Shown in pieces: positions 32,909 through 41,836 of a DNA stretch of 64,000 nt. The position numbers and the translations under genes are program-made. The DNA lies in NCBI RefSeq assembly GCF_016863315.1, contig NZ_BOOQ01000022.1:1-64000 (forward strand), given 5' to 3'. A model generated the notes under the pieces. The model saw nothing but the letters and a program-made list of their open reading frames with translations. It was not told the DNA's origin and searched no databases. Origin of the DNA: Planotetraspora silvatica (lineage in GTDB: Bacteria; Actinomycetota; Actinomycetes; Streptosporangiales; Streptosporangiaceae). Position 1 is the stretch's first letter. Each line of letters begins with the position of its first letter.

Positions 32909-33028
32909 CCGCATCTCCACTGATCCAGGACCGCCGCCCGCGCCGGCCGGACCGCGCCCCCTCGCCCGGCGAGAGCAAGATATACACCTTGTATAGCGAG
33001 TCGGCCGGATAGGGAGGTGTGTGCGTCG

Positions 33029-33565
33029 GTGACGCCGGATGAGGCCACGGAGGTCGCCCGGTCATGTCCGCCGGTCAGCCTGCCGGAGGACGTGCGCCGG
33101 GTGCTGACCGCGGTCGGCTGGCGCTCCGACCGCGACGTCAGTGCCTGGGTGTCGACGTGGCTCCGGGATCTGTACGCCGGGATCCCCGGCTCCGCCGACC
33201 GCCTGCCGATCCACCCGGCGGCCCGCGAACTGCTCGATGAGTTCGGCGGCCTGTCCTTCCGGCAACTCAAGCAGCCCGGCTCGACGAGCGGCGGCTACGA
33301 CGTGCAGGTGTGGCCCACCGAGGGCCGGGTGCTCGTCGACCTGTTCGTGGCGTTCGGCACCGACATCGGCGTCCCGGTGTTCCCGCTCGCCTGGTACGAG
33401 GACGGCCCCGGCGACATCGTCTGCGCCGCCGACGGCCGGGTCTACCTCCTGCACGAGGCCGGCGAGTTCCTCATCGGCGCGACCCCGGATGAGGCGATCA
33501 TCCGCCTGGTCCGCGGTGAGCCGTTCACCCCGGTCGACGATCACGGCGAGCCGCTTCGGCACTGA
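33029..33565 (+). CDS. SUKH-3 domain protein
   Basis: A 178-residue protein of the SUKH (SMI1/KNR4) superfamily, SUKH-3 type. It opens with LPEDVRRVLTAVGWRSDRDV, then HPAARELLDEFGGLSF, FPLAWYEDGPGDIVCAADGR and YLLHEAGEFLIGATPDEAII. SUKH proteins are commonly immunity proteins against nucleic-acid-targeting polymorphic toxins. No toxin gene is adjacent, so this is an orphan copy or a housekeeping relative. AGGGAGG at 33011 suits the GTG at 33029 better than the GTG at 33017. Confidence 0.82.
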   Translation: MTPDEATEVARSCPPVSLPEDVRRVLTAVGWRSDRDVSAWVSTWLRDLYAGIPGSADRLPIHPAARELLDEFGGLSFRQLKQPGSTSGGYDVQVWPTEGRVLVDLFVAFGTDIGVPVFPLAWYEDGPGDIVCAADGRVYLLHEAGEFLIGATPDEAIIRLVRGEPFTPVDDHGEPLRH

Positions 33566-36194: not shown

Positions 36195-36701
36195 TCAGCT
36201 CGTTCGAGGGGCGATAGCGCGCAGCAACGCCTGCAGTTCGCGGTCGGGACTGATGTGTTTGCTGTAGAGGGGTCCGCAGGGTGTGGTCGCCAAGCGCATC
36301 GCGAGGCCGAGCAGATCCGGCGGCGGGATGTCACCGCGGTAGGTCTCGGCGAGGTAAGTGAACTCGTTCAGGATGCCGACGACGCTGCGGTTGGCGGTCT
36401 TGGCGAGGCAACGGTCGCGCATCTGCCGCACTTCATCGTCGATGATCGTGTCGGGGGTTCCATGCGCGGCGAGCACCGTGGCGACCTGCTGCGGGAATCT
36501 GGCCAGCAGGGTCGCTGCGGGGGCCAGCGGCATCAGCACGGGTAGCAGCGTCGATTCGTTGACGAACAGCGCGACCTGGGGTTTCCAGAACACGGCTGTG
36601 GCGTACCACTGGCCCAACAAGGTGGTGGAGTGCTCGCCTTCACCCAGGCTGGGCGGGCCGATACGGTCGAGCAGCTTCTTGGTCCCGCGCACGATGAGCA
36701 C
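36195..36701 (-). CDS. DUF6933-like protein downstream of prfH
   Basis: A 168-residue protein opening with VRGTKKLLDRIG, followed by LLGQWYATAVFWKPQVALFV, NESTLLPVLMPLAPAATLLA and CLAKTANRSVVGILNEF, all of which I recall from DUF6933 proteins of unknown function. The pattern suggests a compact alpha/beta domain with no catalytic signature. The GTG at 36701 is chosen; a TTG at 36719 is possible. It lies 59 bp beyond the prfH stop on the same strand and may be a third member of that RNA-repair operon. Confidence 0.75.
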   Translation of the reverse strand: MLIVRGTKKLLDRIGPPSLGEGEHSTTLLGQWYATAVFWKPQVALFVNESTLLPVLMPLAPAATLLARFPQQVATVLAAHGTPDTIIDDEVRQMRDRCLAKTANRSVVGILNEFTYLAETYRGDIPPPDLLGLAMRLATTPCGPLYSKHISPDRELQALLRAIAPRTS

Positions 36702-36760
36702 CTGCTCATCCTGCCGCAATCATCACTACGCGTGTTCTTGTCCTAGCGATCCTCATGTTG

Positions 36761-37462
36761 TCAGGTGCGATTCTCCTTCCTCGGTGGGCGTGGTCGGGTG
36801 GACTGCCGCCGCTGGTGCGTCTGCTCCTGGGGGGCCGGGTCCTGCTTCGACACTTCCGGACGCTCGATACGCGTGGGGTTGCCGCGTACGAGCTCGTCGT
36901 GGATGCGCCAGCGGGCGGTGGTGACGGCGCGCCCTGCCGCCTCCTCGCCGCGCTCGATGCGCTGTCGCAGCAGCTGCATGGCGAGGCGGCGATTGAGGCT
37001 GAACTGCCGCTCGGTGTCGACCACGACGACGATCCCCGAGGGCCGGTGGGTCGCCCGCACCGCCGTGCTGGCCTTGTTTCGATGTTGACCGCCGGGGCCG
37101 CCGGTACGGCAGGCGACGATGTCGACGTCTGCTTCCGCGAAGGTCGTGCGCGGGGTGTCGACCTGGCACGGCTGGGCGATGACGTACCAGTTCTTTCGGC
37201 CGGTGCTGGCCCGGTAGGGGCTGGGGGCCTGCCAACACAGAGTTCCGGTCCACGAGGCGGCGAACGCCTCGGCGCCGGTTCCTGCGATCTGGATCAGGAC
37301 CGATCGGTAGGTGCCGGGCCGGTCACCGGGAACGGTCTCGGCCCGACGAGTCTCCAGATTCTGCCGGGTGGCGTCGGCTTCCAGGCGATGCAGCAGCCGG
37401 GCCAGCGCCCAGGCGCACTCCTGCGGGCCACGCCCGGCCGACAGGAGCAGGTGGACGCTCAC
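36761..37462 (-). CDS. prfH: Release factor H (peptide chain release factor-like)
   Basis: A 233-residue class-I-release-factor-like protein without the codon-recognition domain. The N-terminus LLLSAGRGPQECAWALARLL is typical of PrfH. The peptidyl-hydrolysis loop CRTGGPGGQHRNKASTAVRA carries the GGQ motif, and the tail is Arg/Lys/Pro-rich for ribosome binding. PrfH is known to act on ribosomes damaged in the decoding centre, releasing the nascent chain so that the partner RtcB ligase can repair the rRNA. It overlaps the rtcB gene by four bases (ATGA). Confidence 0.93.
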   Translation of the reverse strand: MSVHLLLSAGRGPQECAWALARLLHRLEADATRQNLETRRAETVPGDRPGTYRSVLIQIAGTGAEAFAASWTGTLCWQAPSPYRASTGRKNWYVIAQPCQVDTPRTTFAEADVDIVACRTGGPGGQHRNKASTAVRATHRPSGIVVVVDTERQFSLNRRLAMQLLRQRIERGEEAAGRAVTTARWRIHDELVRGNPTRIERPEVSKQDPAPQEQTHQRRQSTRPRPPRKENRT

Positions 37463-38706
37463 GGCCGGCCTTGCCTGCGGCGGTGGTCCCGATCGTCTCG
37501 GTGGTCACGCCGGGACGTGGACCCGAGGTCGGGCGTCTTGTAGGTGACCAGCGGGACCGTGGTGGCCACGGGCGTGGCCAGGTCATGGTCGACGAGGTCG
37601 GCGATCACCTGCTCGATGCGCTTGTAGGCGGTTGGTGCCTCCTCGAAGAGCAGCTGACGGTCGCCGCACACCACCACCGACCCCACCGGCGTACGGCGCA
37701 GCTCCTCGACCGTGTGCTTGGCCCGGCCCCGGCGCAGGGCGTCTGCACGCGACATCTTGCGGCCCGCGCCGTGCGCCACGGAATGGTTGGCGTCCGGCCC
37801 GGCGTGGGCGGCCACGAGGTAGGAATGGGTGCCTCGCGTACCGGCGATGAGCACGTCGCGGCCGTCACCCGGCGCCGCCCCCTTGCGGTGCAGGTAGACC
37901 CCGTCGCGGATCTCGACCAGGTTGTGGCACTGGTCGACGAGCGGCTCGGTGGGCTCGGCGCCCAGGGCATGGGCGACCCGGGCGGCCATCAGCCGCCGGT
38001 TGAGCGATCCCCAGCGTACGGCCTCGTCGTGCATCGCCAGGTAGGCGCCGGGATCAGGGGCGGGGCCCGCGCCGTGGACCGCGGTGTGCGCCCGCAGGAT
38101 CCGTTCGCCCAGTCCTCGGGAACCGCTGTGGACGATGAGAACCAGGTCGTCGGCGGCGAGTCCGAGACGGCTCGCGTGGCCCGGCTCGAAGACGGTTCCG
38201 ATCCGCGCCAGTTCGACGAAGTGGTTGCCCCGGCCGACCGTCCCGAGGCCCTCGAGGTGGCCGGCTGGAACATCGCCCTGCACGACGGCCCAGGCCGGGT
38301 GGTCGGCATCCCGCTCAGGGTCCAGGGCGCGATCGAGGTCGGGGAATCGCGCGGCGACCTTCGTGGGTACGGCGCGCTTGAGCTTGATGGGAAACACGGC
38401 GATGCCGCAACCGATGTCGGAACCCACCAGGAACGGATACAACACGGTCGACGCCATGGCGGCCCCGATGGGGGCGCCCTTGCCAGGGTGCAGGTCCGGC
38501 ATCGCGGCGACGTGCATCATGCCGTCGAGGGCTGCCACCTGGTGGCACTGCGCGAGGGCATCAGACTCGATCCAGCTTTCGGGGGAGGCGAACACGGCGA
38601 CGGTGGCCGAACCCATGGCCGGGGCGGACGGCAGCAGTGACTCCTGCCGGGAGTGTTGCTGAGACAAAGAGCTCTCTTCGCTGAAAAAGGTACGGGCGGA
38701 CGGCAT
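37459..38706 (-). CDS. rtcB: RtcB-family RNA ligase (RtcB2, prfH-linked)
   Basis: A 415-residue RNA ligase joining 2',3'-cyclic phosphate to 5'-OH ends with GTP and Mn2+. Visible elements are MPDLHPGKGAPIGAA, metal site VGSDIGCGIAVF, GRGNHFVELARIG, HSGSRGLGERI and the guanylylation His in HGAGRKMSRADALRRG. The gene pair rtcB-prfH is the known ribosome-repair unit. The start is uncertain: ATG at 38706, TTG at 38667 or ATG at 38616. There is no RtcR/sigma-54 regulator beside it. The Arg/Asp-rich C-terminal tail overlaps prfH. Confidence 0.93.
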   Translation of the reverse strand: MPSARTFFSEESSLSQQHSRQESLLPSAPAMGSATVAVFASPESWIESDALAQCHQVAALDGMMHVAAMPDLHPGKGAPIGAAMASTVLYPFLVGSDIGCGIAVFPIKLKRAVPTKVAARFPDLDRALDPERDADHPAWAVVQGDVPAGHLEGLGTVGRGNHFVELARIGTVFEPGHASRLGLAADDLVLIVHSGSRGLGERILRAHTAVHGAGPAPDPGAYLAMHDEAVRWGSLNRRLMAARVAHALGAEPTEPLVDQCHNLVEIRDGVYLHRKGAAPGDGRDVLIAGTRGTHSYLVAAHAGPDANHSVAHGAGRKMSRADALRRGRAKHTVEELRRTPVGSVVVCGDRQLLFEEAPTAYKRIEQVIADLVDHDLATPVATTVPLVTYKTPDLGSTSRRDHRDDRDHRRRQGRP

Positions 38707-38971
38707 TACGGCGCGCGTCGGCGCCGTGGCATTTCGGGAGTAGCCGGGGTGCTGTCCGTCAGAGCGTCATGGACACAACTTTCCTTGAGCCCACCAGGCG
38801 AGGCAAACGGTTTTCGGGCGTATAGGCCTGTATGCCGCCATCTAACGACGTGCGCGTGCGCACCCTGTACCCGGACAGGGGCCGGCGAAATGCCTGATCG
38901 GCGCCGATGGTGATCGCCCTGGCTTCCGTTCACAATTGGGAGGGTTTCGTCGGCGGAAGGGCAGCCCTGTC

Positions 38972-39517: not shown

Positions 39518-41836
39518 ATGCGCTTGACGGATCGGCTGGCGGACGCGTTCAAGTTCTTCGGCACGGCGGAGGTCCGGCCCCGAAGGGTGCGAGTTCTCAG
39601 CGCGGCGGCCCTCGCCCAGGCCTGTACGGCCGGCCGAGCCGTACGCGCCCGGGAGGGTGAGGGCCTCGTCGTGCCCGCCAGGCTGGTGCGTGAGCTGTGC
39701 CGCGGCGGGCGCGAGGAGGTCGACCCGCGTGGGCTGACGATCGAGGGAGCCAGGATCGACGGCGACCTCGACCTGAGCGGGATGCAGGTTCCCTTTCCTC
39801 TGCGTTTCGTCGGCTGCTCCTTCGACCGGCCGGTCAATCTGGACGGCGCCGACCTGCACGTGTTGACCCTGGACGCCTGCACGGTGCCGGGACTTCTGGG
39901 CAACGGCATGCGCGTGCGCCGCGATCTGGATCTGTCGCGATCGCGCATCACGGGTGACCTGTGGACGTCCGCGAGCACCTCGTGCACGGCGGCGGTCTGG
40001 CTCTGCGAGTCGGAGATCGGCGGCCGCATCCTCTGCCTGGACACGGTCATCGACTCACGTATGCGGGCCGTACAGGCCGACCGGATGCGGGTCGGCGGGA
40101 CGATCCGGCTGCTCCACGGATTCGAGGCGCGTGGAGGGATCCGGCTGATCGGAGCTCAGGTGGAGGGCTCGCTGGACTTGGCCGGAGCCCGGCTGACCCG
40201 GCCGGACCGGGGGCTGGCCCTCGATCTGGGCGATGCGCACATCGGCGGAAGCTTCTTCCTCGTCGACGACTGGACGGGCCGCCGTCCACTCATCCGTGGC
40301 CGCCTCGACCTCGGCAACGCCCGGATCTCCGGGCAAGTGCTGGTGCGCAACGTGACCGTCGAACCCACGGAAGAGGTCAGAGGAGCCGGCTATTCGAATA
40401 GCCGCAGCGGGGGCACCGCGGTGAGCGCGCCCGGCCTGTACGTCGGCGGAGACCTCAGCGTCGAAGGCGCCTGCCGCATCGAAGGCGGGGTCGACCTCGC
40501 GATGGGTTCGTTCAGCACCATCCGCATCCACAGGGGATGCGAGCTGGCCGCGGGCGGCGGGCGTGCGCTCGACCTGACCAATGCCGAGTTGCGCTCCAGC
40601 CTTTTCATTGAGGACGGCGTGGCGGTCCGCGGCACGTTGCGGCTGGCCGGAACCCACATCAGGGGCGACCTCACCCTCGAGGGGACGACGTGGAGCGACC
40701 CGGAGGGCGGCTCGCTCATCGCCGCGGAAGGGGTCGTCGTCGACAACGTGGTGAACCTGCGGAGGCTGGAGGCGAACGGCGGCCGGCTGAGGTTCCGCTC
40801 CGCGACCGTCGGCGGCATCGTGGACGCCCATGACGCCCGGCTGAACAACCCGGGCGGTGAGGCGCTGTCACTCCAGCGGGCCGTGGTGCGCGGTTCGGTC
40901 TCGTTGTCGGGAGGCTTCTCCGCCGAAGGCCGGGTGCTGCTGAACAGGTGCACGGTGGAGGGGCGCCTCGACTGTGAAGGCGGCACGTTCGGCGAAGGAC
41001 TCTGGGCGGTGGCGGCCACAGCGCGAGGAGGCATGCGCCTGCGATGGGCGCAGGTGCCGCCCGTGGTCGACCTGACGGGCGCGTCCACCACCGTGCTCAC
41101 CGACGACCCCGACCGGTGGCCGCGCGCGGCGGCGATCGCCGGATTCGTCTACGACCGCTTCGACGGCTCATGGGACTGGCGGGTCCGCAGGGACTGGCTG
41201 CGCGGGATGAGCTCGTTCGACGCCGGGCCGTACGAGCAGGCGGCCAGGGTGTTACGCCAGCACGGCCGCGCGACGGAGGCCGAGCGGCTGCTCATCGAGC
41301 AGCGCCGACAGGCGCGGAAGGCGGCGGCCGCGCGCGGCCGCTCGCCCCGCCAGTGGATCCAAGGCGCGCTCGACCTGCTGTACGGTCTGAGCGTCGGCTA
41401 CGGCTATCGGCCGGGACGCACGTTGTGGCTGCTCGGCGCGTTACTCGTCGTGGTGGGGGTCATGATGGCGACTCCCGCGGTCCAGCAGACCATGCGGGCC
41501 ACCGACCCGCGGGGCAACGTGTACGCGGTGGACGGGCGGCTCGTCACGGTCGACGGCGAGGCAGCGGGACAAGACGCCACCGCAGCGGCGGCGCCGCGCG
41601 CCGCCCGTCCGGGGCCGTGCGGGGACGGGCAGGTGCGCTGCTTCGACCCGCTGTTCTACAGCGTGGACACCGTCGTGCCACTCATCTCACTGGGCCAGCG
41701 GGCGACGTGGTATCCCGAGACGCGCAGCGCTCACGGCTCGCTGGTCTCGACGCTGCTGAACGTGGCCGGCCTGCTGGGCTGGTTGTTGTCGACGGTGGTC
41801 GTGCTCTCGTTCGCCAGGCTCGCCCGATCGGCGTGA
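39518..41836 (+). CDS. Large membrane protein with repeated beta-helix domain
   Basis: A 772-residue protein. Residues 60-530 are built from short repeats of the type IDGDLDLSG, VRRDLDLSRSRITGDLW, VEGSLDLAGARL, VRGTLRLAGTHIRGDLTLEG, as in bactofilin/pentapeptide-like right-handed beta-helices. Residues 535-620 are Trp/Arg-rich helical linkers (DGSWDWRVRRDWLRG). The C-terminal part has two membrane spans (about 633-655 and 740-765) around a loop with a Cys pair and DPLFYSVDTVVPLISLGQR, which resembles a channel pore helix. Relatives are often called membrane-associated oxidoreductases, but no redox motif is visible. Confidence 0.8.
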   Translation: MRLTDRLADAFKFFGTAEVRPRRVRVLSAAALAQACTAGRAVRAREGEGLVVPARLVRELCRGGREEVDPRGLTIEGARIDGDLDLSGMQVPFPLRFVGCSFDRPVNLDGADLHVLTLDACTVPGLLGNGMRVRRDLDLSRSRITGDLWTSASTSCTAAVWLCESEIGGRILCLDTVIDSRMRAVQADRMRVGGTIRLLHGFEARGGIRLIGAQVEGSLDLAGARLTRPDRGLALDLGDAHIGGSFFLVDDWTGRRPLIRGRLDLGNARISGQVLVRNVTVEPTEEVRGAGYSNSRSGGTAVSAPGLYVGGDLSVEGACRIEGGVDLAMGSFSTIRIHRGCELAAGGGRALDLTNAELRSSLFIEDGVAVRGTLRLAGTHIRGDLTLEGTTWSDPEGGSLIAAEGVVVDNVVNLRRLEANGGRLRFRSATVGGIVDAHDARLNNPGGEALSLQRAVVRGSVSLSGGFSAEGRVLLNRCTVEGRLDCEGGTFGEGLWAVAATARGGMRLRWAQVPPVVDLTGASTTVLTDDPDRWPRAAAIAGFVYDRFDGSWDWRVRRDWLRGMSSFDAGPYEQAARVLRQHGRATEAERLLIEQRRQARKAAAARGRSPRQWIQGALDLLYGLSVGYGYRPGRTLWLLGALLVVVGVMMATPAVQQTMRATDPRGNVYAVDGRLVTVDGEAAGQDATAAAAPRAARPGPCGDGQVRCFDPLFYSVDTVVPLISLGQRATWYPETRSAHGSLVSTLLNVAGLLGWLLSTVVVLSFARLARSA

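Follow-up and report, generated by a model that had tools for sequence, protein, structure and literature searches.

The rtcB2-prfH gene pair of the soil actinomycete Planotetraspora silvatica is preceded by a control region, shared with many actinobacterial loci, in which a promoter fitting the WblC/WhiB7 consensus is followed by a three-codon mini-ORF and a leader. It is proposed from this arrangement that the pair is a member of the WhiB7 regulon with a mini-ORF leader, the new element being the actinobacterial control region of rtcB2-prfH. The DUF6933 gene following prfH is most likely a separately inherited bystander. We consider the explanation as a whole (a repair pair, a WblC/WhiB7 promoter, a mini-ORF leader and a DUF6933 bystander) to be likely. 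The features are listed in Table 1, with coordinates that refer to the 64,000-nucleotide stretch of DNA analysed here, termed the window.

Table 1. Features of the rtcB2-prfH locus in the P. silvatica window
Feature	Position	Strand	Basis or remarks
WblC/WhiB7 box GAAAAC, 3 nt (CGT), then −35 TTGCCT	38801..38815	−	Fits published consensus (PMC7157823)
−10 element GAAAGT, 17-nt spacer	38778..38783	−	Fits NANNNT, not the first T of TANNNT
Mini-ORF ATG ACG CTC TGA (M-T-L-stop)	38759..38770	−	ATG-N6-stop conserved 35 to 37 nt downstream of the −35 TTG
Leader from the mini-ORF to the rtcB2 start, which is preceded by the weak Shine-Dalgarno-like GAAGAGAG	38668..38758	−	Length varies regardless of frame
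rtcB2, RNA ligase, 402 aa from the most likely UUG start	37459..38667	−	NF007153, TIGR03073 and PF01139 above cut-offs; start by frame conservation
prfH, peptide chain release factor H, GGPGGQ	36761..37462	−	TIGR03072 above cut-off; best PDB matches are PrfH structures
DUF6933 gene, GTG start	36195..36701	−	PF22016; neighbour, probably outside the repair system

Identity and arrangement of the rtcB2-prfH pair

The rtcB2 ORF, which would occupy positions 37459 to 38706 of the minus strand at its maximal extent if extended to an ATG at 38706, matched PF01139 (2.4e-61), NF007153 (477 bits; cut-off, 407) and TIGR03073 (312 bits; cut-off, 272). The product has the motifs for metal binding and guanylylation (DIGCG, GNHF, VHSGSRG, CHN and HGAGR), which align with solved RtcB structures. 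PrfH scored 196 bits against TIGR03072 (cut-off, 167), and a comparison with the PDB identified the PrfH chains 7sa4 and 9mor as its nearest solved relatives. The rtcB2 gene lies directly upstream of prfH with a 4-bp overlap (37459 to 37462), an order that was identical in other actinobacterial loci. The original prediction of an RtcB ligase with its key motifs overlapping a PrfH with a GGPGGQ motif was, therefore, borne out. One locus, L161 (G141:C43:10709), has rtcB2 and an intact WblC-type leader, while its prfH breaks off after ∼24 matching residues.

The pair resembles the RtcB2-PrfH (RFH) module of Escherichia coli and its relatives (PMC1586002, PMC9223846, PMC6514570) in its two families, in the order and overlapping or translationally coupled arrangement of the genes, in the GGQ motif and the RtcB metal and histidine motifs, and in a sporadic distribution in changing contexts. 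It differs from the E. coli module in having a leader with a WblC-type promoter and mini-ORF, in its UUG start and in the presence of DUF6933 downstream in one actinobacterial lineage. That PrfH releases the nascent chain from cleaved ribosomes and that RtcB2 reseals their 16S rRNA is established for the enterobacterial relatives, and membership in the same families leads us to infer that the P. silvatica genes form a ribosome rescue-and-repair pair.

A profile search detected no RtcR (PF06956) in the whole P. silvatica genome. The absence of this regulator had been predicted, together with a contrast to the control of enterobacterial rtc operons; the absence held genome-wide, but the comparison was misplaced, as RtcR in enterobacteria controls rtcBA (PMC12606134) and not rtcB2-prfH. 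The lack of RtcR, therefore, says nothing special about this pair. The rtcBA operon also encodes an RtcB-family ligase, which is induced by translation damage, but it is under sigma-54/RtcR control, has RtcA as the partner and contains no PrfH.

A WblC/WhiB7-type promoter upstream of rtcB2

Many actinobacterial loci shared a conserved region of >100 bp upstream of rtcB2 despite changes in the neighbouring genes. In the window, this region contains a predicted promoter, GAAAAC-CGT-TTGCCT-N17-GAAAGT (38815 to 38778, minus strand). The WblC consensus of Streptomyces coelicolor consists of GAAAWY, 3 nt, TKGMNN, 16 to 19 nt and TANNNT, with the transcript starting 7 to 8 nt later (PMC7157823). The 17-nt spacer of P. 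silvatica is within this range, while GAAAGT differs from the consensus −10 element at the first base.

Counts were obtained from 67 actinobacterial rtcB2-prfH loci, collected as relatives of one prfH query, whose leaders share ancestry, so that the counts do not represent independent events. Of the 67 loci, ∼60 had a promoter in agreement with the consensus for WblC/WhiB7 (GAAAWY-N3-TKGM). The strict form of the box was detected in 35 of 67 upstream regions versus 4 matches in 1.69 Mb of flanking background (∼0.0008 expected per region), and the other promoters (32/67) matched the relaxed form only. Across loci, the promoter profile was GAAAWY-CGN-TTGCC followed, after ∼17 nt, by a −10 element of the form NANNGT; among 63 loci, 53 retained the A and 52 the T of this element, and its first base departed from TANNNT. 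The promoter resembles those of the WblC/WhiB7 regulon in S. coelicolor (PMC7157823) and Mycobacterium abscessus (PMC10727445) in having a GAAAWY box separated by 3 nt from the −35 element, a 17-nt spacer and a predicted start 7 to 8 nt after the −10 element, and differs in the first −10 base; a function in ribosome rescue also fits this regulon. Together, these features strongly suggest that rtcB2-prfH has a WblC/WhiB7-dependent promoter in actinomycetes, and induction of the pair would then be WhiB7 dependent.

The WblC regulon of S. coelicolor includes ribosome rescue genes, among them arfB, smpB, hflX and hsp15 (PMC7157823), and neither RtcB nor PrfH occurs in the main text of that paper. 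A limited literature search, which further papers could extend, yielded no publication linking RtcB with WblC, and the only match for RtcB together with WhiB7 concerned feather degradation. WhiB7 itself is encoded in the P. silvatica genome (L156, G000:C9:314558) and has the EPW motif and the RGRP AT hook that distinguish WhiB7, being the only WhiB protein of this genome with an AT hook. The upstream region of this whiB7 gene carries GAAAATAGGTTGCCC, which corresponds to GAAAAT-N3-TTGCCC and represents an autoregulation-type promoter.

A three-codon mini-ORF at the predicted transcription start

The predicted transcription start (38771 to 38770) is located on or beside the ATG of the mini-ORF, which is, therefore, possibly leaderless. 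An initial scan detected ATG-N6-TGA/TAA at the distance from the −35 TTG given in Table 1 in 61 of 67 loci. A relaxed second scan detected the mini-ORF in 63 of 67 loci, including one with ACG in place of ATG and one with TAA in place of TGA. In the control, this arrangement was present at 2 of 5,194 background TTG[CT] sites. The combination of box and mini-ORF occurred eight times in 394 genomes, and three of these occurrences were before rtcB2. Locus L094 has a deletion of the leader, and its rtcB2 frame opens with a GTG approximately where the start of the mini-ORF would be. At a further locus, L157 (G233:C1:5606452), a gene is preceded by a WblC-type promoter, a three-codon ORF (ATG GGC ATC TGA) and a hairpin accompanied by a T run, an arrangement resembling a classical attenuator.

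It is quite possible, although we would not put it at an even chance, that the promoter is WblC dependent but that the three-codon ORF is an initially transcribed sequence or a DNA element that is not translated for regulation. The promoter evidence stands alone, irrespective of the mini-ORF, and four loci have kept the promoter while the mini-ORF is missing. The bases just after the stop codon (CGGAC) are also conserved, such that conservation may act on this segment at the level of DNA or RNA. Opposing this explanation is the pattern within the mini-ORF: the start and stop codons show almost no variation, partly by construction as the regular expression of the scan required both, whereas the intervening codons vary, with T, R, M or S at codon 2 and F, Y, L or others at codon 3. 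Furthermore, the single change of stop codon was from TGA to TAA, and start and stop were always separated by two codons. A regulatory role of the mini-ORF leader is our preferred reading, and these patterns hint at such a role.

The leader and the start codon of rtcB2

The frame between the TTG that follows GAAGAGAG and a fixed anchor inside rtcB2 was kept in 61 of 61 loci. The distances from the mini-ORF to this TTG were spread over all three frames (23, 21 and 17 loci). As the frame is maintained from the TTG but is random modulo 3 further upstream, translation of rtcB2 most likely starts at the UUG at 38667 and not at the ATG at 38706. The length of the leader varies without regard to frame, which argues that positions 38668 to 38758 are non-coding.

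Analysis with RNAalifold detected a possible pairing of CUGACGGACA with UGUCUCAG, that is, with the rtcB2 start region, as well as a small G+C-rich hairpin between the mini-ORF and the rtcB2 start. The paired bases of CUGACGGACA and UGUCUCAG were nearly invariant and provided no covariation support. The leaders' own pairing partners were no better than swapped partners (31.6% of permutations reached the value of the own partners), and sliding of the partner resulted in similar energies at other positions. The all-locus folding energy was near 0, and the mean z score was only −0.75. A simple consensus scan detected no terminator-like site or hairpin on the strand of the gene in the rtcB2 leader, and no known RNA family matched this leader.

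The arrangement is similar to the uORF attenuator of whiB7/wblC in that a non-coding leader with an upstream ORF (63/67 loci) lies behind a WblC-type promoter. Differences are that the rtcB2 leader ORF has three codons and is directly at the predicted transcript start, that the main gene belongs to a repair operon instead of encoding a regulator and that the whiB7/wblC attenuator needs a terminator, whereas no Rho-independent terminator was found by the consensus scan of the rtcB2 leader.

A model for induction and action of the repair pair

In the proposed mechanism, WblC/WhiB7 would switch on the pair, along with other ribosome protection genes, when translation is inhibited. The transcript would start at or next to the three-codon ORF and would continue through a non-coding leader of ∼90 nt into rtcB2, translated from the UUG. 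Ribosomes that are slowed or damaged on the mini-ORF may alter the leader such that the rtcB2 start is exposed; the predicted pairing could perhaps reflect such a switch, with the mini-ORF region hiding this start unless it is covered by a slowed ribosome. At ribosomes cleaved in the decoding centre, PrfH would then free the nascent chain and RtcB2 would reseal the 16S rRNA. An extension of this mechanism, which is speculative and which we regard as rather improbable, is that the leaderless mini-ORF is a direct sensor of damage. Cleaved ribosomes would stall on AUG-N6-UGA and cover the CUGACGGACA segment that masks the UUG, turning on rtcB2-prfH, and release of the stalled ribosomes by PrfH would close a feedback loop operating on top of WhiB7-mediated transcription.

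In a different view of the function, the substrates of the pair would be other RNAs (tRNA or mRNA), or its trigger would be antibiotics and not toxins that cut rRNA. WblC responds to antibiotics that target translation (PMC7157823), and the P. silvatica genome encodes a further RtcB that is not of this type, such that roles may be divided. We consider this view unlikely in light of the E. coli RtcB2-PrfH pair, which protects from colicin E3 but not from colicins E5 and D, which cut tRNA (PMC9223846).

Distribution of the pair and separability of DUF6933

A PrfH scan of genome contigs identified 79 prfH loci, mostly in Micromonosporaceae and Streptosporangiales. No further neighbouring gene was conserved beside rtcB2-prfH in most of the surveyed actinomycete loci. 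The RFH-RtcB unit is described in PMC6514570 as sporadic, horizontally spread and at times accompanied by accessory genes. In the five Planotetraspora species, P. silvatica included, all of whose genomes contain prfH, the rtcB2-prfH block (window 36723 to 38861; L148, L149, L150 and L151) was observed in four different contexts with sharp edges of homology. No transposase was present within the block in these species, and no clean empty site for a mobile block was found in a sister species, the flanks being rearranged too. A gene for a SUKH-3 immunity protein (PF14433) is located at 33017 to 33565 of the window, ∼3 kb from the repair pair, and positions 39518 to 41836 encode a protein of 772 aa that has hydrophobic segments at its C-terminal end and matches pentapeptide repeats (PF13576) weakly.

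A DUF6933-like gene had been predicted 59 bp downstream of prfH on the same strand, and this was confirmed with PF22016 (1.3e-34 for the ORF from 36195 to 36719, minus strand, which includes an alternative TTG start); the gap is 59 bp from the GTG at 36701 and 41 bp from the TTG at 36719. The gene is present as a single copy in the P. silvatica genome. The suggestion that its product takes part in the repair or in its control did not hold up in the survey of prfH loci: searches with a single sequence and later with a small profile found DUF6933 adjoining prfH in 1 of the 79 database loci, L040 of the sister species Planotetraspora kaengkrachanensis, in which PrfH shares 94% identity with that of P. 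silvatica. DUF6933 is present in three of the five Planotetraspora genomes and absent from the other two although these contain prfH; in one of the three (G397), DUF6933 is on contig C27 and prfH on C80. Among 394 actinomycete genomes, prfH was above the cut-off in 4 and DUF6933 was present in 10, the two occurring together only in P. silvatica. DNA comparisons resolved two blocks of homology: the rtcB2-prfH block ends at 36725 of the window relative to G397 (L149) and at 36723 relative to G396 (L151), and homology to G397 (L147) over the DUF6933 block begins at 36723, at the edge of the former block. Elsewhere, DUF6933 was found alone or near transposases on plasmids, and none was found in viral contigs and phages. 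In other actinomycetes (L119 and L120), DUF6933 is fused to PRiA4_ORF3 (PF07929), a hint of an unrelated function of its own. Comparison of the DUF6933 sequence with the PDB yielded no meaningful match, and an AlphaFold model based on two input sequences was unusable (pLDDT, 37.5).

Of the two observations named beforehand as arguing against a role of DUF6933, the lack of linkage elsewhere was thus made, but neither a terminator nor a separate promoter was found between prfH and DUF6933. As no terminator-like site is present, read-through and passive co-transcription are likely here, and DUF6933 is probably expressed by read-through from the rtcB2-prfH promoter. The dN/dS ratio of ∼0.26 to 0.44 indicates purifying selection and, hence, a functional gene. 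That DUF6933 is a true third member or regulator of the repair system, recruited in this lineage, is very unlikely: its position close behind prfH, the retention of this arrangement under purifying selection in two species and the accessory genes that other lineages have around RFH-RtcB are outweighed by its adjacency in one sister species only, its separation from prfH within the genus and among the 394 genomes, its occurrence elsewhere alone or in fusions and its absence from the RFH accessory genes in the main text of PMC6514570. DUF6933 was, therefore, rejected as a repair partner on linkage, and the patterns of inheritance indicate that it is most likely a bystander with no conserved part in repair.

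Implications

If the proposed explanation is correct, DUF6933 would no longer count among the likely repair factors, and rRNA repair would be part of the antibiotic-stress response of actinomycetes. The rtcB2-prfH pair would then be linked both to intrinsic resistance and to the toxins with which soil bacteria cut each other's ribosomes. The mini-ORF, three codons long and located at the extreme 5′ end of the mRNA, would be a candidate for a minimal uORF that may report ribosome damage.
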